A DNA stretch of 64,000 nucleotides from Bacillota bacterium (GTDB lineage Bacteria; Bacillota; Clostridia; Peptostreptococcales; Anaerovoracaceae). The stretch covers positions 62,001 to 126,000 of the forward strand of contig JAQXQE010000006.1 of NCBI GenBank assembly GCA_029101005.1, read 5' to 3'. Made by a program: the position numbers and the translations under genes. The notes below the pieces were generated by a model. It did no database searches and was not told the origin of the DNA. It saw only the letters and a list, made by a program, of their open reading frames with translations. Numbering within the stretch: the stretch's first letter is position 1; each line of letters starts with the position of its first letter. This document shows positions 4,391-60,087 of the stretch, one piece after another.

Positions 4391-4560
4391 ATTAAACCTA
4401 GCTCTCCGCAACTGCGACAGTCAGGCGGATCTTATCCTACCTGCCCAGAAGAGATTCGTCAGTTCTCAACTTCGGCGAGCATTCCTTTCTCCCCGGCAAC
4501 GGCTTGACGACCTTATGCACCGGACTTACTGATAATAGCTCGCGCCTCTATCCATTAATT
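4391..4560 (-). promoter_or_regulatory. lysine riboswitch (L-box) aptamer
   Basis: Minus strand GATAGAGGCGCGA...CAGTA...CGCCGAAG...CTGGGCAGG...GACTGTCGCAGTTGCGGAGAGCTA, closed by AATTAA/TTTAATT; all hallmark L-box segments in order, upstream of dapA. Confidence 0.93.
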
Positions 4561-9061: not shown

Positions 9062-10297
9062 TTATTTGCGCTCAAGAACTGGCGCAGCGCCTTCTTCAAC
9101 TACTTCCTTTGTGATGGTGCACTTAACAACATCAGGCTGTGAAGGAAGCTCGTACATAATGTCTGTCATTATGTTCTCGAAGATTCCGCGAAGTCCTCTT
9201 GCTCCTGTTTTGAGTTCAATTGCCTTGGCCGCGATTGCTGTGATTGCCTCATCATCAATCTCAAGGTCAACATCATCCATAGCGAGCAGTGTCTGGTACT
9301 GTCTGATCAGAGAATCCTTAGGCTCTCTGATGATTCTCTCGAGTGCAGCTGTGCTGAGCTCGCTCAGGCTTACGTTCACCGGAAGTCTTCCGATGAGCTC
9401 AGGGATGAGTCCGAACTTGAGGAGATCCTCTGGCTCAACCTTGAGCAGAATGTCTCTCTCATCGTACTCCTCTCCTACTGCCTCTGTGTCGAAACCGATA
9501 ACCTTGTTACCTAGTCTTCTCTTGATGATAGTAGAAAGACCTGTAAAAGCACCACCGCAGATGAAGAGTACATTCTTAGTGTCGAAGTGAATGAACTCCT
9601 GCATTGGGTGCTTACGTCCACCCTGTGGTGGAACATTGGCAATAGTTCCCTCGATAATCTTGAGGAGGGCCTGCTGTACGCCCTCACCGCTTACATCTCT
9701 TGTGATGGAAACGTTCTCGGACTTGCGGGCAATCTTGTCAATCTCGTCGATGTAGATGATACCCTTCTGAGCTCTCTCAAGGTCTCCGTCAGCAGCCTGA
9801 TAGAGTCTGAGGAGAATATTCTCAACGTCCTCTCCAACATAACCTGCCTCAGTGAGTGAAGTAGCATCTACAATAGCGAAAGGTACATCCAGGATTCTCG
9901 CAAGAGTCTGTGCGAGCAGAGTCTTACCGCTTCCTGTAGGTCCGAGCATCAGGATGTTACTCTTCTGAATCTCAACCTGATCTGAGCCTCTGTTATCCTT
10001 CTTCTCGAGATACTTGATTCTCTTATAGTGGTTGTATACCGCAACAGCGAGAGTCTTCTTAGCGCTCTCCTGCTCGATGACATACTGTCCAAGCTCCTCA
10101 ACGATGTCGGCTGGCTTAGGCAGCTTTGTCATTCTCTTGCGTACCGGCTGCTGGTCCTCTGTGATAAGAGATGAGCAGAGGTCGATACACTCGTTGCAGA
10201 TGAATACATCCGGTCCAACAATGATTTTCTTTACCTGTGAGCTAGTCTTCCCGCAGAAAGAGCACACAAGCTCGTTAGTTCTGTTCTCTTTGCTCAA
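9062..10297 (-). CDS. clpX: ATP-dependent Clp protease ATP-binding subunit ClpX
   Basis: N-terminal zinc finger CSFCGK...[20 protein letters not shown]. Confidence 0.97.
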
Positions 10298-10315
10298 TTC
10301 AATCTCCTTAAGTAG

Positions 10316-10894
10316 TTATCTCTCGAGCACCTTGTCGATAAGTCCGTACTCCATAGCCTCCATAGCAGACATGAAGTTGTCTCTGTCAGTATCCTTCTCG
10401 ATTGTCTCGAGATCCTGGCCAGTAGCCTCAGCGAGGATATTGTTCAGCTTGGACTTAGTCTTCATCATCCAGTCAGCCTGAATCTTGATATCTGATGCCT
10501 GACCCTGAGCACCACCGAGTGGCTGGTGAATCATGATCTCGGCATTAGGAAGAGCATATCTCTTGCCCTTTGTTCCTGCTGACAGAAGTACAGCACCCAT
10601 GCTTGCCGCCAGTCCAACGCAAATTGTGCAGATGTCTGGCTTAACGTACTTCATTGTGTCGTATATAGCCATTCCTGCCGTTACCATTCCGCCAGGTGAG
10701 TTGATGTAGATCTTGATGTCTCTCTCTGGATCCTGCGCCTCAAGGAAAAGAAGCTGTGCTACAACAAGGCTTGCTGTTCTGTCGTCAATCTGGTCATCGA
10801 TGAAGATGATTCTGTCGATCAGAAGTCTTGAATAGATGTCGTAACTTCTCTCTCCCTGTCCTGTCTGCTCAATTACATAAGGTACATAATTCAT
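10316..10894 (-). CDS. clpP: ATP-dependent Clp protease proteolytic subunit
   Basis: [27 protein letters not shown]; start set at [10 protein letters not shown] after AAGGAGATATTAAG. Confidence 0.97.
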
Positions 10895-10926
10895 TCTTAA
10901 TATCTCCTTAAGCAAGGGGCTGTGGA

Positions 10927-12228
10927 CTATGCCTCAGCCTCTGCTTCCTTCTTAACTGCCTCAGCGAAGATGAACTCGATAGCCTTCTTTGTCTGTACGT
11001 CTTCCTTGAAGTACTTAACGTTAGGTCCGATCATCTCCTTAACCTGCTCGTTTGTCATTCCGTACTGTGCACCGAATGCTGCAACCTCAGCCTCGAGCTC
11101 CTCATCAGTTACATCGATGTTCTCCATTCTGATGATGTTCTTGAGGAGGATTCTTGTGTTAACTCTTCTGAGAGCCTCATCTCTTGAATCGTTCTTGAGA
11201 TCCTCAACAGTCTTGCCCATCCACTTCATGTAATCCTCAACGCTGATGCCCTGCATTCCGAGCTGCTGGTTCATCTCCTGGATCATTGAGTTAAGCTCGC
11301 TGTCAATCATTACCTCTGGTGTCTCGATTGGGTTAGCATTGAAAAGTGCCTCGAGAGCTCTGTCCTTCATGATTGACTCGTCCATGTTGTCTGCATCGTT
11401 CTGGAGCTTCTTAGCGAGGTCCTCCTTGAACTCAGCGAGTGTCTCGAAATCGCTGATGTCGCTTGCGAGCTCGTCATCGATCTCTGGGAGAATCTCCTGC
11501 TTAACCTCGTGAACTGTTGTCTTAAATACAGCTGGCTTACCAGCGAGGTCCTCTGCGTGGTACTCCTCAGGGAATGTTACAGCTACCTCAACCTCAGTGC
11601 CTGCAGCCTGACCAACGAGCTGATCCTCGAATCCTGGGATGAACTGTCCGCTTCCGAGCTTGAGCTCATAGTTCTCAGCTGTGCCACCCTGGAACTCAAC
11701 ACCGTCAACTGAACCAACGAAGTCGATGATTACTGTGTCGCCGTTCTCTGCAGCTCTCTCAACGGTCTCCATTCTAGCCTGCTTCTTAGCAAGTCTCTCG
11801 AGCTCAGCCTGAACCTCAGCATCTCCGATTACTGTAGCGCTCTTCTCGATCTCAAGACCCTTGTAGTTAGCAATCTCCATCTCAGGGAAAGCGTCAACCT
11901 TAACTGTTACAGTTACGTCCTCACCCTTCTTGATGTCTGATACCTGAAGATCCTTAGGCTGATCGATTGGCTCGATATCGAGCTCAGCGAGAGCCTTTGG
12001 ATATGCCTCGTCGAAGAGGTCGTTAAGTGCGTCTGTGTAGAAGATCTCAGCTCCGTACATTCTCTCGATGATCTTTCTAGGTGCCTTACCCTTTCTGAAT
12101 CCATCAATCTGGAACTGGTTTCTGTTCTTCTTGAATACAGCGTCTACAGCAGCCTCAAACTCCTCAGCTGCGAAAACTACCTCAAACTTAACCTCGTTGC
12201 CTTCCTTAGCAATGATTGTGCTCTTCAT
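10927..12228 (-). CDS. tig: trigger factor
   Basis: 433 aa; [16 protein letters not shown] ribosome-binding motif, FKBP domain, upstream of clpP. Confidence 0.96.
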
Positions 12229-48339: not shown

Positions 48340-49704
48340 ATGTCTAAGAAGGACAACTCAAGCGCTAGCTTCTCAAGATTCGGCTACATCATGGTAGCTG
48401 CCGGCGCTGCTATCGGACTCGGTAATATTTGGAAGTTCCCGTATGTCGCATACGGCGATGGAGGCGGAACATTCCTGCTCGTATACTGTGTATTCGCAGT
48501 ACTGCTCGGACAGCCTGGAGTAATGATTGAGACAGCTATCGGTCGTCACTCAAGAGCTAACGCAGTAGATGCTTACGGCAAGATTAACAAGAAATGGTCA
48601 TTCATCGGAGTTATCAACACAGTTTGTACAGCTATGATCGACTTCTACTACATGATCGTCAGCGGTTACGTAGTAAAGTACGCAATTGCATACCTTACAG
48701 GTGCACGCTTCGGTGCTGATAAGGCTGCATACTACAATGCATTTATCTCAGATCCAATCGAGCCACTGATCTACGGATTTGCAGTAATCGCAATTACTTC
48801 AATAATCCTCGGCTTCGGTATCACAGATAAGGTAGAGAAGATTTGCAAGGTTATCCTCCCTGCACTTCTGATTCTCCTCATCATCTGCGGAATCTGGGCT
48901 CTCGTTATCTCACCAAATGCTATGGAAGGTCTCAAGTGGTACCTCTTACCTGACTTCTCAAAGCTCAATACAACAACTCTTGCTGATGCATGTATGCAGG
49001 TACTCTTCTCAGTAGGTATCGGCTGGGCTATCTTCATAACACTCGGTGCAAGTATCTCTGATGATAAGAACCTCAGATCTGACTCAACATGGGTAGTAAT
49101 CTGTGACTCAGCAATCGCTATTCTCGCAGGATTCGTAATCATCCCATCAGTAGTTGGTTCAGGAGCAGAGATGGCTTCAGGTCCTTCACTGGTATTCCTG
49201 GCTATGACATCAATCTTCGAGCAGTTCCCAGGTGGTAACATTATCGGACTCTTCTTCTTCATGTCACTGGTATTCGCTGTATTCTCAACAGCGTTCACAA
49301 TCCTCGAGATTCCTATCATGGTAGTAAGAGAGAAGTTCAACACAGGCTCATGGGCTGCAGTAATCATCACATCATCAATCATCTTCATCGGCGGAGTATT
49401 CGCATCACTCTCACAGGGAAGCGGACTGCTGAGTGGAGTAATGATTCCTTGGATAGACTTCGGAGGAATTCACCACTACAACATCTACGACTGGATTGAT
49501 TGCTTCACAGGATATGTTCTCCTCCCAGGTGGAACACTGCTGACATCATTCTTCGTATCATATGTATGGGGTTTCGACAACCTGAGCAAGGAGCTCGAGA
49601 AAGGTGGCGGAAGACCTGTCAGCAAGTGGGACAGATTCACAATTCAGATCTGCATTCCTATCCTCACTCTCGTAGTAATCCTCCACGCATTCGGACTATT
49701 CTAG
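48340..49704 (+). CDS. neurotransmitter:sodium symporter (SNF/NSS) family transporter
   Basis: 454 aa; FSRFGYIMVAAGAAIGLGNIWKFPYVAYGDGGGTFLLVY. Confidence 0.94.
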   Translation: MSKKDNSSASFSRFGYIMVAAGAAIGLGNIWKFPYVAYGDGGGTFLLVYCVFAVLLGQPGVMIETAIGRHSRANAVDAYGKINKKWSFIGVINTVCTAMIDFYYMIVSGYVVKYAIAYLTGARFGADKAAYYNAFISDPIEPLIYGFAVIAITSIILGFGITDKVEKICKVILPALLILLIICGIWALVISPNAMEGLKWYLLPDFSKLNTTTLADACMQVLFSVGIGWAIFITLGASISDDKNLRSDSTWVVICDSAIAILAGFVIIPSVVGSGAEMASGPSLVFLAMTSIFEQFPGGNIIGLFFFMSLVFAVFSTAFTILEIPIMVVREKFNTGSWAAVIITSSIIFIGGVFASLSQGSGLLSGVMIPWIDFGGIHHYNIYDWIDCFTGYVLLPGGTLLTSFFVSYVWGFDNLSKELEKGGGRPVSKWDRFTIQICIPILTLVVILHAFGLF

Positions 49705-49723
49705 ACGAGACACATACGACATA

Positions 49724-49754
49724 CAAAGCCGGCTGCAAGCAGCCGGCTTTTAGC
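49724..49754 (+). terminator. intrinsic terminator
   Basis: AAAGCCGGCTGCAAGCAGCCGGCTTTT. Confidence 0.85.
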
Positions 49755-49969
49755 ATGCCTGAAAAAAACAATCTCTAATTCTGATATATAATTAACGATT
49801 TATTTGTGATAAATGCACAAAAAAACAAAACACGTACTTGCTTTAATGCAAGATTTTGAGTAAACTAAACAAGTCGTGCTTTATATGATGTTAAGTAATA
49901 CTTATCACCATTTGCACTCAATAGCTATGTAATGATAACAAGATAAGAAAGAAAGTTGGTTAGTAGATA

Positions 49970-51358
49970 ATGATAGAAAGAATAGCTGATATTAACACTG
50001 TAGTTAACGATTTCGTCTGGGGCGTTCCTGCAATGGTCTGCATTGTAGGTGTAGGTCTCTACCTCAGCTTCAGAACAGGATTCATTCAGTTCCGCAAGTT
50101 CGGTTATTCACTCAAGTCAACCTTAGGTAAGATCTTCAGCAAGGCAGATGCTAAGGATGGCGCAATCACACCTTTCCAGGCCGTATGCACAGCACTCGCC
50201 GCAACTGTAGGAACAGGTAACATCGCCGGCGTTGCTGGTGCCATCGCTATCGGAGGCCCAGGTGCTGTATTCTGGATGTGGATGTCTGCCCTTCTCGGTA
50301 TGTGTACAAAGTTCTCGGAAGTAACACTCGCTGTACACTTCAGAGAGGTTAACGCTGAGGGAGACTATGTCGGCGGACCAATGTACTACATCAAGAACGG
50401 TCTCGGCAAGAACTGGATGTGGCTCGCTTACCTCTTCGCAATCTTCGGTACACTGACAGTATTCGGAACTGGTAATGCTACACAGGTTAATACAATCACA
50501 TCAGCTATCAACGCTGCACTGATCAATTATAATGTTTTAGATGCTAACAACCTCGGAACAAGCAACCTCATCATCGGAGTTGTAATCTGCGTACTCGTTG
50601 CAGTTATCCTCCTCGGTGGAGTTAAGAGAATCGGTAAGGTAACAGAGACTCTCGTTCCTATCATGGCAGTTCTCTACATCGTGCTTGGACTTGGTGTAGT
50701 TTTTCTCAACTTCCAGTATGTTCCAGCAGTATTCAAGTCAATCTTCGAGGGAGCATTCAATCCAAGTGCTGTTACAGGTGGAGTTGTAGGAAGCCTCTTC
50801 CTCTGTATGCGTAAGGGAGTATCAAGAGGAATCTTCTCTAACGAGGCAGGCCTTGGTACAGGTTCAATCGCACACGCAACAGCTGATACAGATCACCCAG
50901 TTAAGCAGGGACTCTTCGGAATCTTCGAGGTTTTCGCAGACACAATCGTAATCTGCACACTCACAGCCCTCGTAATTCTCTGCAGTGGCGTATCAATCCA
51001 GTACGGTGAGGCAGCAGGAGCTGAGCTCACAATCGCAGGTTTCACTAACGTATACGGTAACTGGGTATCAATCTTCACAGCTATCGCAATGTGCTGCTTC
51101 GCGTTCTCAACAATCCTCGGATGGGGACTCTACGGAACACGTTGCTGCGAGTTCATCTTCGGAACAAAGAGCATCAAGGTATTCATGGTACTCTACTCAC
51201 TCGTAGCTATCATCGGAGCAACAATCGACCTCGGTCTCATCTGGAATATCGCAGACACATTCAACGGTCTTATGGCTATTCCAAACCTTATCGCAGTATT
51301 CATGCTCGCACCAGTAGTAGTTAAGCTCGTTAAGGATTATTTCGACAAAGCAAACTAA
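49970..51358 (+). CDS. alanine/glycine:cation symporter (AGCS) family transporter
   Basis: 462 aa; FQAVCTALAATVGTGNIAGVAGAIAIGGPGAVFWMW, FSNEAGLGTGSIAHATA. Confidence 0.95.
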   Translation: MIERIADINTVVNDFVWGVPAMVCIVGVGLYLSFRTGFIQFRKFGYSLKSTLGKIFSKADAKDGAITPFQAVCTALAATVGTGNIAGVAGAIAIGGPGAVFWMWMSALLGMCTKFSEVTLAVHFREVNAEGDYVGGPMYYIKNGLGKNWMWLAYLFAIFGTLTVFGTGNATQVNTITSAINAALINYNVLDANNLGTSNLIIGVVICVLVAVILLGGVKRIGKVTETLVPIMAVLYIVLGLGVVFLNFQYVPAVFKSIFEGAFNPSAVTGGVVGSLFLCMRKGVSRGIFSNEAGLGTGSIAHATADTDHPVKQGLFGIFEVFADTIVICTLTALVILCSGVSIQYGEAAGAELTIAGFTNVYGNWVSIFTAIAMCCFAFSTILGWGLYGTRCCEFIFGTKSIKVFMVLYSLVAIIGATIDLGLIWNIADTFNGLMAIPNLIAVFMLAPVVVKLVKDYFDKAN

Positions 51359-51385
51359 TCATTTGTACAAATACAGGTTATAGTA

Positions 51386-51418
51386 AAACAGCCAGTGCGA
51401 AAAGCACTGGCTATTTTA
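51386..51418. terminator. bidirectional intrinsic terminator
   Basis: AAAACAGCCAGTGCGAAAAGCACTGGCTATTTT between convergent genes. Confidence 0.8.
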
Positions 51419-51447
51419 CTATATTCGTTATATTTCCTGCTATGCGT

Positions 51448-52320
51448 CTAGTATTCGCTAACGCCCTTCTCAACTATGAAGTTGACCAGCGTCTGAAGTG
51501 GCTTTCCCATTCTTCTAGCACTATAGAACAGCTGAAGCTTATCAACGAACACATCTCCTAAAGGCACTGCCTTCAGGTTCGGTTCATCTCTCATCTCAGA
51601 CAGCGGAATAACTGCAAAACCCTGCGAGATCGCTACCATTGCATTCTGCACATCAGTTGACTGAACTTGCTTAACACCTCTGAAATTTTCACCGAACATC
51701 TTATACAGATTCTCTCTGCAGAATTCATAATATGCCTTATCTAGCGACTTGGTGATGAAAGGAAGTTCGGCAATAGCCCCACCAATAGATCCATATCTCT
51801 CGATGCTGTCAGCCGATATGAGAAGATGCTCCGGAGCACGCACAATATCCACGGTCTCAACATGATTTGACTGTGCAAACTTAGTGCCAAGGTTATAAGG
51901 CATTACTATTGCGTCGAGTTTCCTCTGCTGAAGCGCCATAGCAAGTTCACTCTCATTACCTATAGTCATATTGAGTTTGATATCAGGGTGAGCATCGGTG
52001 AACTCCTTGAATACCGGAAGGAAGAAGTGCGAGCCATCAAAGCCGAGATTGAGCTCGTTATCCCTATCACCCTTAAGCCTCATAAGCAATTCATTGTACC
52101 CTCTTAATATCTCCAACACTCCATCGCAGAATATATGTCCGTCAGATGTTAGCACGCAACCTTTATTATTCCTCTCGAAGAGTGCAACTCCAAGCTCATC
52201 CTCTAGTTGCGCGATGTACTTGCTCATCGTCGTCTGCGCTATACCACACTTATCTGCAGCTTCGGTGAAATTACCCGTCTCTGCTGCAGCAAGGAAGTAA
52301 TCCAGTTTTCCTATATTCAT
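51448..52320 (-). CDS. LysR-family transcriptional regulator
   Basis: 290 aa; LDYFLAAAETGNFTEAADKCGIAQTTMSKYIAQLEDELGVALFER; divergent from brnQ. Confidence 0.95.
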   Translation of the reverse strand: MNIGKLDYFLAAAETGNFTEAADKCGIAQTTMSKYIAQLEDELGVALFERNNKGCVLTSDGHIFCDGVLEILRGYNELLMRLKGDRDNELNLGFDGSHFFLPVFKEFTDAHPDIKLNMTIGNESELAMALQQRKLDAIVMPYNLGTKFAQSNHVETVDIVRAPEHLLISADSIERYGSIGGAIAELPFITKSLDKAYYEFCRENLYKMFGENFRGVKQVQSTDVQNAMVAISQGFAVIPLSEMRDEPNLKAVPLGDVFVDKLQLFYSARRMGKPLQTLVNFIVEKGVSEY

Positions 52321-52510
52321 ATCTTATTCCTTCTCTTATCCATTATCTGCCATATATTATAACCTTTTCCATTGCCAACTTGAAGCCAGATATGAAAAAA
52401 AGTGCTGACAAGATGAATATTATTCGTTTTATTTTTGCTCGCAAGCCATATATAAGTGAAACTGTATTAAGAAAGAAATATATGAATTATCGAAAGGTTA
52501 GGTACAAGCA

Positions 52511-53881
52511 ATGAATACTAATAGAAGACATATGATCTCATCAACAGTCTGTATGGGTCTTGCACTCTTTGCAACGCAGTTCGGTGCAGGTAATCTCATC
52601 TTCCCTCCATTCCTCGGACGTGGAACTGGCTCAGACTGGATGGTAGGTTTCCTCGGCTTCCTGATTATGGATGTTGGTCTCGCAGCAGCTGCAGTATATT
52701 CAGTAGTTGCAAACAGAGCAGGAACAGTTGACGGAGTTGTCGGCAAGATGGGACCTAAGGCAGGTAAGGTCCTCCTTACAACTATCATTCTCTGCCTCGG
52801 ACCATGCGTATGCATCCCACGCACAGCATGCACTAGCTACGAACTAGGCCTTCAGACAATGCTCCCAGGTGTTCCACTTCCTATCTACGGAGCTGTATTC
52901 TTTGCAGTAACACTTTTTCTTGTAATAAGACCTAGCAAGGTTGTAGACATCATCGGTAAGTATCTCACACCTGCACTCCTTGCAGTTATGGTGCTTCTCA
53001 TCATCCTCGGTATTGCTGATCCAATCGGCAAGGCCGTTCCAATCGAGGATGTTGTTGCTTTCGCATCAGGTGTTCAGAACGGTTACCAGACACTCGACGG
53101 AATCGGCGGAGTACTTATGACAATGATGCTCATGAATGCGGCTATCGGCTACGGCTTCCGCGACAAGAAGGACATCAAGCACATGGTAGCAGGTGCTGAC
53201 ATCATCTCAGCAGTTCTCCTCGCACTCGTATACGGCGGACTCTCATACCTCGGATCAACAGTATCCGGCATCGAAGCATTCGCTGGACTCGAGCAGGCTC
53301 CTCTTATGGTAGCAATCACATATGCACTTATGGGCAAAGCAGGAGTATATGCTCTCGCAACAATAGTTATTCTCGCATGTCTCACAACAGCACTCGGACT
53401 CAGTGCAGTTGTCGGTGATTACTTCGAGGAGCTGACTAACGGCAAGCTCAAGTATAAGACAGTAGTAGTAACAGTTATCCTGCTCAGCTACGCAATGTCA
53501 AACTTTGGACTGTCAACAATCATCTCAATTGCTGGCCCAATCCTTGAGATCCTCTATCCACCACTCATCGTGCTTGTACTCGGCGCGTTCTTCGAGAGAA
53601 TCTCAAGCAATCACCACATTATCAAATTCGCTACATACTTCGCTCTCATCAGCAGCATCATATGTACATTCAATAACATGTTCGGCTTTGGAATGGACTT
53701 CCTTAATATGCTTCCATTCACATCACTTGGACTCGGCTGGGTATGCCCTGCCCTCATCGGTGGAGTAATCGGTTCATTCTTCAAGGATGAGCTCCACATC
53801 ACAGAGACAGTGCTCGACGCAGCTGCAGAAGAGCTCCACGAACTCGAGGAGTCAATGCACCAGCACACAGCACTTAACTAA
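52511..53881 (+). CDS. brnQ: branched-chain amino acid transport system II carrier protein (LIVCS)
   Basis: 456 aa; CMGLALFATQFGAGNLIFPPFLGRGTG... Confidence 0.9.
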   Translation: MNTNRRHMISSTVCMGLALFATQFGAGNLIFPPFLGRGTGSDWMVGFLGFLIMDVGLAAAAVYSVVANRAGTVDGVVGKMGPKAGKVLLTTIILCLGPCVCIPRTACTSYELGLQTMLPGVPLPIYGAVFFAVTLFLVIRPSKVVDIIGKYLTPALLAVMVLLIILGIADPIGKAVPIEDVVAFASGVQNGYQTLDGIGGVLMTMMLMNAAIGYGFRDKKDIKHMVAGADIISAVLLALVYGGLSYLGSTVSGIEAFAGLEQAPLMVAITYALMGKAGVYALATIVILACLTTALGLSAVVGDYFEELTNGKLKYKTVVVTVILLSYAMSNFGLSTIISIAGPILEILYPPLIVLVLGAFFERISSNHHIIKFATYFALISSIICTFNNMFGFGMDFLNMLPFTSLGLGWVCPALIGGVIGSFFKDELHITETVLDAAAEELHELEESMHQHTALN

Positions 53882-53965: not shown

Positions 53966-54095
53966 CAATAGCTCCGAAGTGGAACACTTGCGATAGCCGG
54001 TTCACGGTGACTGGCAAGCGCCAGCGCAGACAAAGCCCTTGAACCGCTGCGTCATCGCAATAGGCGCGAGCCGAGTTCCACGCAGCGAGCTATTG
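53966..54095 (-). repeat. 130-nt nested palindromic element (copy A, complete) overlapping the stop codon of the DMT transporter gene
   Basis: Outer arms CAATAGCTC/GAGCTATTG and TGGAAC/GTTCCA, inner arms TTGCGAT/ATCGCAA and CGGTTCA/TGAACCG, central CTGGC-AAGC-GCCAG hairpin. Confidence 0.8.
54029..54080 (-). repeat. 52-bp dispersed repeat, copy A
   Basis: gacaaagcccttgaaccgctgcgtcatcgcaataggcgcgagccgagttcca, 49/52 identical to 58721-58772. Confidence 0.9.
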
Positions 54096-54953
54096 TTTAA
54101 GTTCGGAGACGAGAGTTGCCCCCAGAATCATAGCCGCACCAACTACAATCATCGCGGTAAGCGGCTCGTGAAGCAGGAACGCTGAGAGCAATACTGCCTC
54201 AACTGGATCAATATAACTTATGATAGCTACAGTCTGTGCTTCTAGCTCCTTTACTGCGCCGAAGTAGATTACATACGCAATACCAGTGTGTACTACTCCC
54301 ACAATGAGGAGGCAGATCAGTCCTCTTAGCGAAAGCTGAATAGTGCCTATGTCCTCAGTCATCAGTACATATGGCAGCACCATCACTGCTGCAAACGCCA
54401 GCTGAGCCATAGTCAGGTCGAAAGTGGATATATCTTTGAGGCTCTTATTGATGATTACGATTACTGCGTAAGTGATTGCTCCTGCAACAGCAAAAACAAT
54501 TCCCTTGAGTGTGTTCGCATCAACCCCGGTTCCAGTTACTCCTGATACGAGAATCATTCCACCGAAGGCAATACAGATGCAGACCACACTTCTAGCAGTA
54601 AGCTTCTCCTTGAACACCAGCGCCGCACCGATGAGGAAGAAGATTGGCTGAGTGTAGTAACATACAGTAGATATCGCAATACTTGTATATCGAAAGGCCT
54701 CAAACTGGCAAACCCAGTTGGTCGCCATCAGTGCACCAAGCAGAATGATTTGCTTGAGGTTTCTTTTGATAGCTGGCATATCGACTCTCTGCTTAGTAAG
54801 TACGAAATACGCCAAGATAGTCAGTACCGCCAGCACCGCTCTACAGAAGCACATCGCACCCGAAGGAAGCTCTATGAATCTTCTGAAAGTACCAATGGTA
54901 CCAAAGATCATACATATAATTATCAGTTTGAATTTCGCATTATTCAGTCCCAT
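54090..54953 (-). CDS. EamA/DMT-superfamily transporter
   Basis: 287 aa, about 10 TM; IGTFRRFIELPSGAMCFCRAVLA, VGVVHTGIAYVIYF, YIDPVEAVLLS. Confidence 0.9.
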   Translation of the reverse strand: MGLNNAKFKLIIICMIFGTIGTFRRFIELPSGAMCFCRAVLAVLTILAYFVLTKQRVDMPAIKRNLKQIILLGALMATNWVCQFEAFRYTSIAISTVCYYTQPIFFLIGAALVFKEKLTARSVVCICIAFGGMILVSGVTGTGVDANTLKGIVFAVAGAITYAVIVIINKSLKDISTFDLTMAQLAFAAVMVLPYVLMTEDIGTIQLSLRGLICLLIVGVVHTGIAYVIYFGAVKELEAQTVAIISYIDPVEAVLLSAFLLHEPLTAMIVVGAAMILGATLVSELKQ

Positions 54954-54965
54954 GAATCTTATCCC

Positions 54966-57005
54966 CTAATGCTTCTGTACGAGTGTTCCTCCGCAACTTG
55001 AACCCGCACCAGCTGTACATCCATAGCAGTGACAGTCGAACTTAATATCTCTTTCGAGGGACTCCACTCTTCCCTCAGCAAAATCAAATATAGTCAGTTC
55101 GCCACAAGGGCCATCACACACCATATCCATAACCTGGTTGAAGTCGCAGTCGTAGATTCTACCATCATATCCAACGCTAATCTGGTTTCTGCACATCATA
55201 TTCTCACATGCCTCAGGGTTAAATGCGTTGATAAGCATATTCATATAAGCCTCATATGTTCCGCATGCAAGGAGATGACGACCGTATCTTCCAATTGGAT
55301 TATTTGTTACTGCAAAGAGCTTGTTGAAGCATACATTGTATCTTGCAAGTTCCCTCTTATACAGTTTCTCAAGTTCATCCTGATCTGGTGGCAGAGTCTC
55401 TCTCTGTGGATTGAACACAAGGTCGAGTTCCTTATCATCATCCATTCCATATCCAGCATCGTTCAGTTTTCTAAGAACTTCAATACTGCCAGCAAAAGTT
55501 CCATCTCCACGCTGTCCATCAGCTGGAGCTTCACTGAAGTTTGGAAGACTCGCGATGACATTAACCCCAAGACGTGCATATTCATCAATAAGATGAGTAT
55601 ATCCCTCCTCGAGGAGAATTGTAAGATTTGTACGCACGATTACCTTGAGGCCTCTCTTTGAAGCTTCGTTAATGAACCACTCAAAGTCAGGGGCCATCTC
55701 CGGTGCTCCTCCTGTAACATCTACAGTTGTGAAGCCATATCTATCTGCAGCATCAAGTACTGCCTGAAGAGTATCTCTTTCAATTACCTCAGTTCTGTTT
55801 GGACCAGCCTGCACATGGCAGTGAGCACATGCGAGATTACATCTCTTACCCACATTAACCTGAATTGTCGTAAGCTTATCTCTAGTCTTGAGCTGCTCCG
55901 ACTTTGGCACCATATCCTCAAAATACATAACTCTTGCCATTGCATCGAGAAGATCCTGATGAGATGCCTGACGCTTCGGCTTATATGCCTCTTTATGCCA
56001 AGCTGGCATAATCTCGAAACCACCAAGGATTGCATCATCAATGTACGAATCTGGTCCATTGATTATTCTATTTCTATAAGACACCTCTGCCGGACTATTG
56101 CGAGGCCATAACTTGTCAAACCACTCCAGATACGCATTATGGTCATACCTCACTGGAACGGCCTCAATATACACGCCTTTGTACTCTGCTCTGTATATTG
56201 CATCATCGCAAGGCAGTATCGATATTCTTGTTAACACACCGAAATTCTGACCCTTGAACGTCGGAAGACCTGCTGAGCCGTTATTAATCACAAATCCCGC
56301 AGCAAGCCTCATAGCAACTGCAGAACAAGTATGTGTTGTTGCCATAATGTCAATTGAATTAGCATCCATAAAGTCTGAGAGCTCCGCCTGACGCATTACA
56401 TCCTCAAGCTGCTCTATCGCACAATCCCATCCACCAAGCAGTTTCTCGTCACCGTGAGTGATTCCTATCTTCAGTCCACCTACAGATGCAATCATATGGG
56501 ATGGTCTATTAACAAGCTTCGCAACAAGCTCAGGAGATGTCTGTATCTCCTTCTTCATAATATTGTGAATCCTGTTTGATCTCGACACGCTTGCATCATC
56601 AGTACAGTCTGGGTATGCGCAACCACATCCAACACCTACATCCTGAAGTCTTCTCACCTCAGCTTCAACGTTGCCGAGAAGCGGAATAAAGTTCTCTATA
56701 TAATTCTCAATTCGCGCCCAGTTCTCGATATCTCTATCGAACCAGTGAATATCTCCGTTAAGAACTACACCTGCACGCCCTTTCTCTCCAAGTCTCTTAC
56801 ATTCATTATCGTACATTCTTGTAAGCTCCTCGGCTGCAAATGGATTGCCGTACAGTCCGCCCGCAATTAGCAGAGTATCAAAAATGTGATCATCAGAAAC
56901 TTCTGATGACCACACCTTCTGATCCAATAGATAATCAATCGGGCAGGCACGACCTGCATCCTTGAAGTTATGGCGAATGTAACTTGGTGTTCTACAACTT
57001 GCCAT
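54966..57005 (-). CDS. fusion protein: N-terminal metallophosphoesterase-like domain + C-terminal ArsS-like radical SAM/Cys-rich domain
   Basis: 679 aa; N-part GGLYGNP, LNGDIHWFDRD, LLGNVEAE, GITHGDEKLLGGWD, TTHTCSA; C-part CNLACAHCHVQAGPNR, VTGGAPEMAPDF, C-terminal CHCYGCTAGAGSSCGG. Confidence 0.85.
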   Translation of the reverse strand: MASCRTPSYIRHNFKDAGRACPIDYLLDQKVWSSEVSDDHIFDTLLIAGGLYGNPFAAEELTRMYDNECKRLGEKGRAGVVLNGDIHWFDRDIENWARIENYIENFIPLLGNVEAEVRRLQDVGVGCGCAYPDCTDDASVSRSNRIHNIMKKEIQTSPELVAKLVNRPSHMIASVGGLKIGITHGDEKLLGGWDCAIEQLEDVMRQAELSDFMDANSIDIMATTHTCSAVAMRLAAGFVINNGSAGLPTFKGQNFGVLTRISILPCDDAIYRAEYKGVYIEAVPVRYDHNAYLEWFDKLWPRNSPAEVSYRNRIINGPDSYIDDAILGGFEIMPAWHKEAYKPKRQASHQDLLDAMARVMYFEDMVPKSEQLKTRDKLTTIQVNVGKRCNLACAHCHVQAGPNRTEVIERDTLQAVLDAADRYGFTTVDVTGGAPEMAPDFEWFINEASKRGLKVIVRTNLTILLEEGYTHLIDEYARLGVNVIASLPNFSEAPADGQRGDGTFAGSIEVLRKLNDAGYGMDDDKELDLVFNPQRETLPPDQDELEKLYKRELARYNVCFNKLFAVTNNPIGRYGRHLLACGTYEAYMNMLINAFNPEACENMMCRNQISVGYDGRIYDCDFNQVMDMVCDGPCGELTIFDFAEGRVESLERDIKFDCHCYGCTAGAGSSCGGTLVQKH

Positions 57006-57030
57006 CTATCTATTATCCTTTCTTATCTTG

Positions 57031-58530
57031 TTATGCTTCAATTCCCTCGGGATCAATCTCTTCCCACTCAGGTCGTGAATGCTCAGCATCAAGAGCAGCA
57101 ATCTCTTCGTCTGTTCTGCCCTTCCATGCTGGACGACCCTCTGTCTTGTCCATCATGTTGGCAATTATACCACAAATGATGTATGAACCCCAACAGAGAA
57201 CTGCACCCCAGAGGTTAACTCCGAGGAAGTTTGCATAAGCTCCTGTTCCAATGTTCATGAATGAAAGAGCATCAGCATTAACAGTATCAACGATACCGAG
57301 AATCATTCCAATCCAGAATGAAAGGTGGAATCCAAGCTTTGTTGGCTTTATAGGACCAGCTCCGTGAATCAGGAAGATTGGTCCAAGACCCATAATCATT
57401 GTTCCACTGATTGTTGTAGCAGCGAGGATATCTGTTCCAACAATCATTGGAAGGTTTCCGATGAATGCAAATGCAACCATGAATCCGATACCAATCCATC
57501 TAGCCTTCTCGTGTGGATCCTTACCGAGAATTGCTGGAAGGTCTCTTGCAGTCAGCTTAGCAAGTGAGCTGAATGTTGAGTCAAGAGTTGAACCACCACA
57601 CATGATCATCATGATGGCCATAAGGAAGAATGCTGCAATTCCCATACCCTGAGCAACAGTCTGAGCAGCATCTGTTACCTCCTCGAGGCCTGACAGCATT
57701 GCGTCAACTCCGATGAGTGAGAACAGTGTGATAGCAACAAAACCGAGAAGACCAGCTACAGTGAAGCACTTGAGCATCTTCTTCTCTTCACAGATGAATC
57801 CTCTGTCTGTAAGTACAGCATCGTGGAATCCGTATGAGAGGCACTGAAGACCTGCTCCAAGCACGAAATCAAGACCAGCATCCATTGTCCATGAACCACT
57901 TGTAATGTAAGCTGATGCTGGATGCGCTGGAAGAATCCAGAAGATTGTGAATACGAGAAGAACTGCGAACAGTGCTGCCTGAAGTACGTCTGTGATAAGT
58001 GATGATCTAAGTCCACCCCAGCAGCTGTACGCAAGAGTGATGAAAGTGAACAGAAGCGCAGCAACGATGAATGGCTTGCTTCCTGACTCACCATAGTATC
58101 CACCAATTACAGAAGTATTTGACCATACCTCGTTGAACAGTCTGATAAGGATAGCTGCACTGAAGCAGAACGCTGCAGCAACACCATAGTTGCTTGTCAG
58201 GAACTGAGTCATAGATGTAGCACCAAATCTTCTTCTAAGTCTGTAGATAGCATATCCTGTGAGTGGAATGCAGAGCCAATATACAGCATATCCGATACCA
58301 CCTACGATACCGAACTTATAGCCCATATTTGCGCAGTTATAAACTGACTTAGCAAAAATCCAAGCAATAAATACTGAAGAAGTAATCATAAGCGAACTTG
58401 CCGCCTTACCCTTCTTATCTGTACCCTTGAAGAAGCCTCCAATAGTAACAGCCTTTGGTGAGATTACAAACATAATCACACCATATACAACCAGAAAACC
58501 CCAGAACAGAAGTCCTGTACCCATCTGCAT
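57031..58530 (-). CDS. sodium:solute symporter (SSS) family transporter
   Basis: About 13 TM; GGFFKGTDKKGKAASSLMITSSVFIAWIFAKSVY, GGLRSSLITDVLQA; start placed at MQMGTGLLFWGF after GAAGGGAG. Confidence 0.88.
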   Translation of the reverse strand: MQMGTGLLFWGFLVVYGVIMFVISPKAVTIGGFFKGTDKKGKAASSLMITSSVFIAWIFAKSVYNCANMGYKFGIVGGIGYAVYWLCIPLTGYAIYRLRRRFGATSMTQFLTSNYGVAAAFCFSAAILIRLFNEVWSNTSVIGGYYGESGSKPFIVAALLFTFITLAYSCWGGLRSSLITDVLQAALFAVLLVFTIFWILPAHPASAYITSGSWTMDAGLDFVLGAGLQCLSYGFHDAVLTDRGFICEEKKMLKCFTVAGLLGFVAITLFSLIGVDAMLSGLEEVTDAAQTVAQGMGIAAFFLMAIMMIMCGGSTLDSTFSSLAKLTARDLPAILGKDPHEKARWIGIGFMVAFAFIGNLPMIVGTDILAATTISGTMIMGLGPIFLIHGAGPIKPTKLGFHLSFWIGMILGIVDTVNADALSFMNIGTGAYANFLGVNLWGAVLCWGSYIICGIIANMMDKTEGRPAWKGRTDEEIAALDAEHSRPEWEEIDPEGIEA

Positions 58531-58676
58531 AGTTAAATATCTCCCTTCATACAATAAACTGTGAATTATTAGATATAGTCTAGCCAAACATCGCAGATTC
58601 TACCATAACTCAAATCCCTCATCAAATAGAAGATATCTATAGCATTAGACTAAGTCTAAATACTAACGAACACTAG

Positions 58677-58779: not shown

Positions 58780-59976
58780 CTAGTTGCTTGTGTAATTGTC
58801 GAAGTAGCCCTGTACAAGTACTACTGGTGTTCCCTTATCTCCCGATCCTGATGTCAGGTCGCAGAGTGAACCGATGAGGTCTGTCAGACGACGTGGTGTT
58901 GTTCCCTCTGACTCCATCTGTCCGAAGAGGTCAGCGTCCTTATCCTTGATTCTCTGAGCGATAGCAGCCTTGAGCTCATCTCCGCTGAGATCAGCGAAAT
59001 CGTTATCAGCAAGGTACTTGAGCTTGAGCTCATTTGGTGTTCCCTCGAGTCCTGGTGTGTAAGCTGGTGAAACAACAGGGTCTGCGAGCTCCCAGATCTT
59101 TCCTACTGGATCCTTGAAAGCTCCGTCTCCGTATACCATAACCTCAACCTTCTTGCCAGTTCTCTCGTATACCTTAGCCTGGATATCCATTACGAGGTCT
59201 GTGCACTCACGTGGGAAGAGCTTGATTGAATCTTCAGTAGCCTTGTTTGAACCGAGGAGACCGTACTTCTCGTTGTAGCCGCTACCGTTAACAGGAGCAG
59301 TGAGGATTTCATCCATTCCTACTACTGTAGCGCCCTTAGCCTTGAGAATTCTCTTTGTTCTTGCTCTTGTGTGGATATCACATGTGAGAACCTTATCTGT
59401 GTATTCGAGAATGTCCTCAGCGTGGTTAGCGAAGATGATCTCGCACTCAGCGCCAGCCTCCTCGATGAGCTTACCGTAGTAGTCTACGTAGTCAACACCT
59501 GTGAACTGGTGCTTGTTCTCTCCGAAGAGCTCTCTGTACTTAGCGAGAGTAAGAACATCGCTGTATGGGTTGATTCCTGCATTGTCAACCTGATCCATTG
59601 TCAGAAGAGCATTACCAACCTCATCGCTTGGATAGCTCAGCATGAGAACAACCTTCTTAGCTCCCATTGCGATACCTCTGAGGCAGATAGCAAATCTGTT
59701 TCTTGAGAGAATTGGCCATACAACACCAATTGTCTCGCCACCGAGCTTAGCCTTAACATCCTCAGCTACAGCCTGAATGCTAGCGTAGTTACCCTGTGAT
59801 CTGGCAACGATTGACTCTGTAATTGAAATAACATCTCTGTCGTTCAGAGCAAAACCCTCAACTTCAGCAGCCTCGATTACGCTGTCAGCAACGATAGCTG
59901 CGAGGTCATCGCCCTCTCTGATGATTGGGCATCTGATACCTCTTGAAATGGTTCCAACTCTTCTTTCTTCGCTCAT
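58780..59976 (-). CDS. coenzyme F420-0:L-glutamate ligase (CofE)-like family protein
   Basis: GTISRGIRCPIIREGDDLAAIVADSV...NDRDVISITESIVARSQGNY; start at MSEERRVG after AGGGAGG. Confidence 0.75.
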   Translation of the reverse strand: MSEERRVGTISRGIRCPIIREGDDLAAIVADSVIEAAEVEGFALNDRDVISITESIVARSQGNYASIQAVAEDVKAKLGGETIGVVWPILSRNRFAICLRGIAMGAKKVVLMLSYPSDEVGNALLTMDQVDNAGINPYSDVLTLAKYRELFGENKHQFTGVDYVDYYGKLIEEAGAECEIIFANHAEDILEYTDKVLTCDIHTRARTKRILKAKGATVVGMDEILTAPVNGSGYNEKYGLLGSNKATEDSIKLFPRECTDLVMDIQAKVYERTGKKVEVMVYGDGAFKDPVGKIWELADPVVSPAYTPGLEGTPNELKLKYLADNDFADLSGDELKAAIAQRIKDKDADLFGQMESEGTTPRRLTDLIGSLCDLTSGSGDKGTPVVLVQGYFDNYTSN

Positions 59977-60087
59977 AATTATCCTCCCTATGTGCTTAAA
60001 CGCTGCCATAATTTGACAGCCGGAAATACATATTTCTAAAGCCGATTAATTATATATCATAGCTATGGTCAATACAAACAAAACTTG

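Follow-up and report, generated by a model that had tools for sequence, protein, structure and literature searches.

ArsS is known for the formation of carbon-arsenic bonds, and the calcineurin-like phosphoesterase fold, a well-known hydrolase fold, also occurs in VPS29, which is a scaffold in the retromer. Many genomes carry ArsS without the methyltransferase that would be expected to feed it. Adenosylation of arsenic by ArsS is described in PMC12159101, which cites Cheng et al. 2021. In the open-access literature searched, including that on the host genera, we found no description of the partner set, the altered site or the fusion reported here, so these three are apparently new, whereas ArsS and the phosphoesterase fold were already known; there is a smaller chance that the chemistry is new as well.

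The window (the whole stretch of 64,000 nucleotides analyzed here) comes from a gut-type anaerobe with a genome of 1.6 Mb that is 99.6% complete and, by its group codes, belongs to the same family as Mogibacterium kristiansenii. On its minus strand, 54966..57005 encodes a protein of 679 residues in which a phosphoesterase-fold domain (N-domain, residues 1-336, 55998..57005) is joined by a linker (residues 337-370, 55896..55997) to an ArsS radical SAM domain (residues 371-679, 54969..55895). An earlier note, made from the DNA letters alone, had described an uninterrupted 679-residue ORF at this place, and this was borne out by the window sequence: the frame read from 57005 to 54966 contained zero stop codons and all the motifs quoted in that note. 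A likely ribosome-binding site, AAAGGA, lies at 57016..57021, a Na+/solute-symporter-like transporter gene (57031..58587, minus strand) ends 25 bp upstream of the fusion, and an EamA/DMT-family transporter gene (54090..54953, minus strand) follows 12 bp downstream, probably in the same transcript. Elsewhere in the window, a LysR regulator gene lies within a run of amino-acid transporter genes at 48340-53881 (AgcS, a branched-chain carrier and, by eye, a neurotransmitter-symporter-like one), and a lysine riboswitch (66 bits) was found at 4391-4558 on the minus strand.

The C-half was matched by the ArsS model TIGR04167 with 393.7 bits (cut-off 300) over residues 374-675, and also by Pfam DUF3641 (159.7 bits) and Radical_SAM (44.1 bits), which confirmed its earlier assignment to the radical SAM/Cys-rich proteins of ArsS type. 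The radical SAM 4Fe-4S motif CNLACAHC (Cys389, Cys393 and Cys396; 55818..55841) is invariant in 49 ArsS domains, the C-terminal Cys motif CYGCTAGAGSSC (Cys660, Cys663 and Cys671) is located at 54993..55028, and together with Cys605 and Cys620 all eight cysteines of the ArsS family are kept in the fusion. Fused and stand-alone ArsS domains differed at one diagnostic position, where Tyr574 replaces Phe. Given the canonical cysteines, this single difference and the known ArsS reaction, it is likely that the C-half would perform radical adenosyl transfer, that is, transfer of a 5'-deoxyadenosyl group.

By sequence, the N-half of this protein matches the metallophosphoesterase families weakly (Metallophos_2, 13.8-15 bits, cut-off 27), but a stand-alone homologue passed PF00149 (30.1 bits vs 21.5). 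The AlphaFold model of the N-domain, made with 44 homologues, had a mean pLDDT of 94.5 and a pTM of 0.92, and its top match in a Foldseek comparison with the PDB was SapH (3qfn; E 1.5e-11, TM 0.75 by target), with other metallophosphoesterases and VPS29 as further matches; the calcineurin-like fold was thus borne out by the modeling that had been proposed as a check. The model of the full-length fusion (pLDDT 90.4, pTM 0.88) agrees with a defined arrangement in which the domains pack together. A canonical metallophosphoesterase family in the same order (loci L022-L030), with a conserved CGCxYPDP motif, is apparently the sister of the N-domain. Alignment of the two by hhalign (probability 98.6%, E 6e-16) fixed the register, in which ADVHSN corresponds to AGGLYGN and GHTH to THTC, with GD, GN and HG kept, and alignment with VPS29 gave the same register at the last motif, THTC for GHTH.

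This register places all the ligand changes at metal 1; the assignment of positions to metal 1 or metal 2 follows established knowledge of the phosphoesterase family. GGLYGN (residues 49-54, 56844..56861) replaces motif I, DxHxN, with Gly50 and Tyr52 standing for the metal-1 Asp and His, and THTC (residues 224-227, 56325..56336) replaces GHTH, so that His225 is kept and Cys227 stands for the second His. These metal-1-only ligands were replaced in 44 of 44 homologues (DxH by GGxYGN, the second His of GHTH by Cys227), while the bridging and metal-2 ligands, namely the bridging Asp85 of the fold (in NGD, 56751..56753), Asn112, His184 and His225, were invariant in the same 44 sequences. Four cysteines were likewise invariant (44/44): Cys21 (56943..56945), which lies in an N-terminal extension missing from the canonical sister family, Cys127 and Cys129 of the CGC motif (56619..56627), and Cys227. 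Cys21 and Cys227 have no counterpart in the sister family, but CGC does occur there, so this motif was rejected as a hallmark of the N-domain. The four cysteines and the retained metal position may form one putative site.

Since none of the 44 homologues keeps the metal-1 ligands, an ordinary two-metal phosphatase is improbable, and a one-metal hydrolase is possible; we are fairly confident that the N-domain binds substrate or does chemistry, beyond mere scaffolding. Of the phosphoesterase-type N-half proposed before, the fold therefore stands, but a working phosphoesterase on a phosphorylated substrate is not supported. Such an enzyme, with one or two metals, would remove phosphate from the ArsS substrate or product or cleave a phosphodiester in it (an arsenosugar or nucleoside phosphate, for example), and the symporter would transport either the precursor with its phosphate or the product without it. 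We regard this as rather unlikely, although SapH, the best fold match, is an Ap4A hydrolase/phosphodiesterase, the bridging Asp, the Asn and the two His of the metal-2 site are invariant, and several N-domain clusters contain kinase-like (APH) and nucleotidyl/glycosyl-transferase-like genes. The replacements at motif I and at the second GHTH His abolish the metal-1 site in the form found in this family, and the host genome has neither APH nor glycosyltransferase genes near the fusion, TIGR04283 being absent genome-wide.

To see how the N-domain is distributed, one genome per species was scanned, which gave 47 loci; the following locus counts refer to 49 distinct loci, the window included. Homologues occurred in Peptostreptococcus, Parvimonas, Gemella, Brachyspira, Eggerthellaceae, Campylobacter concisus, Pseudomonadaceae, Nitrincola and others. 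This survey of fusion and adjacency, which the earlier note had suggested, showed that N-domain and ArsS form one ORF in 19/49 loci (Mogibacterium relatives and Eggerthellaceae), and that ArsS is either fused or elsewhere in the N-domain locus in 31/49. ArsS scored over the cut-off in 33 of 34 N-domain genomes, compared with 13/399 genomes of the phylum, and the single exception was a Desulfovibrio MAG with a divergent homologue. Within the order, ArsS was present in 6/6 N-domain genomes vs 18/297 genomes overall (Fisher p 2e-8, uncorrected for kinship). Conversely, the N-domain was absent from 27 of 28 further ArsS-positive genomes (three of these had the canonical sister family only), which means that ArsS does not need it.

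A homologue of the symporter-like gene was located within 2.5 kb of the N-domain in 45/49 loci. The gene at 57031-58587, which had been missed in the earlier note, is the most informative neighbor of the fusion; it scored 24.8 bits against TIGR00813 (cut-off 184), and a homologue at L018 was over PF00474 (26.4 vs 22.8). In Peptostreptococcus faecalis (G254; L037, L068), the unfused genes stand in a row as CMD, ArsS, symporter and N-domain. The N-domain is a new partner of ArsS, and N-domain plus symporter is a widespread partner set. We consider it very likely that N-domain, symporter and ArsS serve one shared pathway. The former proposal that the two domains act on one small-molecule substrate is upheld as to the shared pathway, since unfused homologues share operons, but its phosphatase step on a phosphorylated substrate is not. 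Other N-domain loci carry TIGR04282/TIGR04283 'arsenosugar biosynthesis' genes, VTT-domain proteins, Fe-S proteins and APH-type kinases, and several clusters also have nucleotidyl/glycosyl-transferase-like genes. The CofE-like ligase and phosphoglucomutase genes upstream of the fusion and the EamA gene downstream were rejected as conserved neighbors because they are not kept elsewhere. The CofE-like protein (58780-60009) belongs to the F420_ligase family (PF01996, 198.8 bits), far below the CofE equivalog cut-offs; it is longer than CofE and is encoded in a Bacillota genome.

A tree built from 49 ArsS domains placed the 18 that are fused to the N-domain in one group (SH-aLRT 99) of Mogibacterium relatives and Eggerthellaceae, so as far as the tree shows, the N-domain-ArsS fusion would have a single origin. 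A second group (SH-aLRT 99) held the ArsS domains whose fusion partner is an ArsM-like methyltransferase. These ArsM-ArsS fusions (L120:8549-10579, L122:9548-11536, L123:8448-10361 and L136:5007-7037, from M. kristiansenii, Eggerthellaceae and genome G669) share their genomes with the N-domain fusion in M. kristiansenii and Eggerthellaceae. Their genes are usually downstream of a CobW-type GTPase, and at L123 and L136 genes for an amidohydrolase and an ABC importer lie nearby. Within about 23 kb, G669 encodes an ArsM-ArsS fusion, a separate ArsS and the N-domain, along with an arsenosugar-type ArsM (524.6 bits against a cut-off of 400), a truncated symporter, an aquaglyceroporin, an ABC importer and an amidohydrolase of the deoxyadenosine/MTA deaminase type. 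The arsenic-type cluster of G669 also encodes several paralogous small radical SAM proteins with weak PF04055 matches (L136:8416-14811, L137:5471-6460), and the one tested had no NCBIfam match.

No ArsM gene was seen beside the N-domain in most N-domain genomes, so the arsenic reading rests on ArsS homology and on a few clusters. The absence of arsM noted before for the window holds for the whole host genome, where the best NF008823 match was 26 bits and NF038099 gave none; acr3 and TIGR04283 glycosyltransferase genes were also not found there. Among genomes, curated-level ArsM by NF008823 was rarer with the N-domain (0/34 vs 7/27 ArsS genomes without it), while by NF038099 the N-domain genome G669 passed. 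Under loose scoring, ArsM-like genes were present in 15/34 N-domain genomes vs 11/27 ArsS genomes without the N-domain, so a general anticorrelation of N-domain and ArsM was not supported, and the statistics do not show that the N-domain replaces ArsM.

On balance we lean towards arsenic as the acceptor of the adenosyl group. The alternative is that the ArsS-type half adenosylates some other soft center (S, Se, Sb or P, for example) of an imported compound, which we think unlikely. It would agree with a host genome that has no arsM, acr3 or TIGR04283 and with the separate clade of the fused ArsS domains. The host also has a second ArsS (L013:8302-9307, contig C21), in which an in-frame TGA stands at the last Cys of GSSCGG, the position of Cys671; SelB is encoded in the genome, and this ArsS is a probable selenoprotein. 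It is adjoined by a CMD gene (9309-9641) of the type that accompanies other ArsS genes, and an inosine-uridine nucleoside hydrolase/PadR fusion (9806-11044) is close by. With this separate, probably selenocysteine-containing ArsS in the genome, the fusion might serve another function. Against this, the fused ArsS domains differ from the others in only one diagnostic residue and keep the eight cysteines, and N-domain homologues are found in arsenosugar-annotated clusters and, in G669, beside ArsM. The suggestion of a role possibly outside arsenic chemistry is accordingly not favored, the ArsS half being canonical and N-domain homologues clustering with ArsM-ArsS, arsenosugar-type ArsM and TIGR04282/TIGR04283 genes.

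It is quite improbable that the N-domain is a non-catalytic scaffold which, like VPS29 in the retromer, tethers ArsS to the symporter or the membrane. VPS29 is among its sequence and fold matches, the metal-1 ligands are lost and the symporter gene is almost always adjacent, but conservation is highest at the former active site and the four cysteines, not on a surface, and N-domain and symporter stay paired where ArsS sits elsewhere in the genome.

The full-length fusion was also found in the congener G034 (76% identity, 50% in the linker, which is below either domain), in M. kristiansenii (G095; L086; 70% identity) and, as a single ORF, in about 15 loci of Eggerthellaceae. Comparison with the G034 and G095 homologues gave pS of 0.75-0.87 vs pN of 0.17-0.21 in both halves, which indicates strong purifying selection on the N-half as well as the C-half, with synonymous sites near saturation. 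An assembly or sequencing error (a missed stop or frameshift) has next to no chance of explaining the fusion, since separately assembled genomes of Mogibacterium relatives and Eggerthellaceae carry the same single ORF and purifying selection runs through both halves, even though a comparable artifact does exist at L074, where a run of N merges the symporter and fusion ORFs. The apparent triple fusion of symporter, N-domain and ArsS at L074 was rejected because its ORF crosses this stretch of N.

Taken together, we propose a bifunctional ArsS in an import-fed, ArsM-independent system, in which the substrate is prepared or passed on by the N-domain and the C-half adenosylates a putative arsenical; we give this reading a probability of roughly 45%. 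The symporter-like protein would import a small substrate, and the N-domain would bind and prepare it through one metal position (Asp85, Asn112, His184 and His225) and through thiols in or around the lost metal-1 site, with Cys227 probably joined by Cys127, Cys129 and Cys21. The substrate would then be handed over to the ArsS domain, which would cleave S-adenosylmethionine and attach the 5'-deoxyadenosyl group to it, a trivalent methylated arsenical being the most likely acceptor. The N-domain module would thereby take the role of ArsM as the substrate source of ArsS, much as the paralogous ArsM-ArsS fusions make their own substrate. A narrower version, in which the replacement of metal-1 ligands by thiols created a one-metal/Cys site that passes an imported organoarsenical directly to ArsS, is tentative and on the unlikely side.

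If the import-fed thiol-site reading is true, gut anaerobes have an ArsM-independent, import-driven route to adenosyl-arsenicals. An arsenic substrate would bear on how gut bacteria handle dietary organoarsenicals, and a different substrate would mean a second chemistry for ArsS-type enzymes. The two-gene partner set spans Bacillota, Coriobacteriia, spirochaetes, Campylobacter and Pseudomonadota, which makes the missing ArsS substrate testable in cultured relatives. The N-domain in itself clearly exemplifies how a familiar hydrolase fold can be altered in its catalytic metal.

Compared with known systems, the fusion agrees with ArsS (TIGR04167; DUF3641) in a C-half over the cut-off, in CNLxCxHC, in the C-terminal CYxCTAGxGSSC and in the eight cysteines; it differs in its 336-residue phosphoesterase-fold N-terminal domain, in an ArsS domain that groups with the other fused ones in a clade apart, and in a genome without ArsM. 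SapH-type metallophosphoesterases (3qfn) have the same fold, motif order and metal-2 ligands, and one canonical sister family of them also shares the CGCxYP motif, but the N-domain has other residues at motif I DxH and at the second His of GHTH, an extension with the invariant Cys21, and a link to ArsS and the symporter. VPS29 shares the phosphoesterase fold and a sequence-profile match, whereas it is a retromer scaffold and conservation in the N-domain peaks at the site residues. The ArsM-ArsS fusions (L120, L122, L123 and L136) have the same layout, with a domain of about 340 residues ahead of ArsS, but their N-half is an ArsM-like methyltransferase with no phosphoesterase fold, and their ArsS domains form a separate clade. 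Since ArsM has the same N-terminal position in these paralogues, the phosphoesterase-fold domain occupies the place of the substrate-making enzyme.
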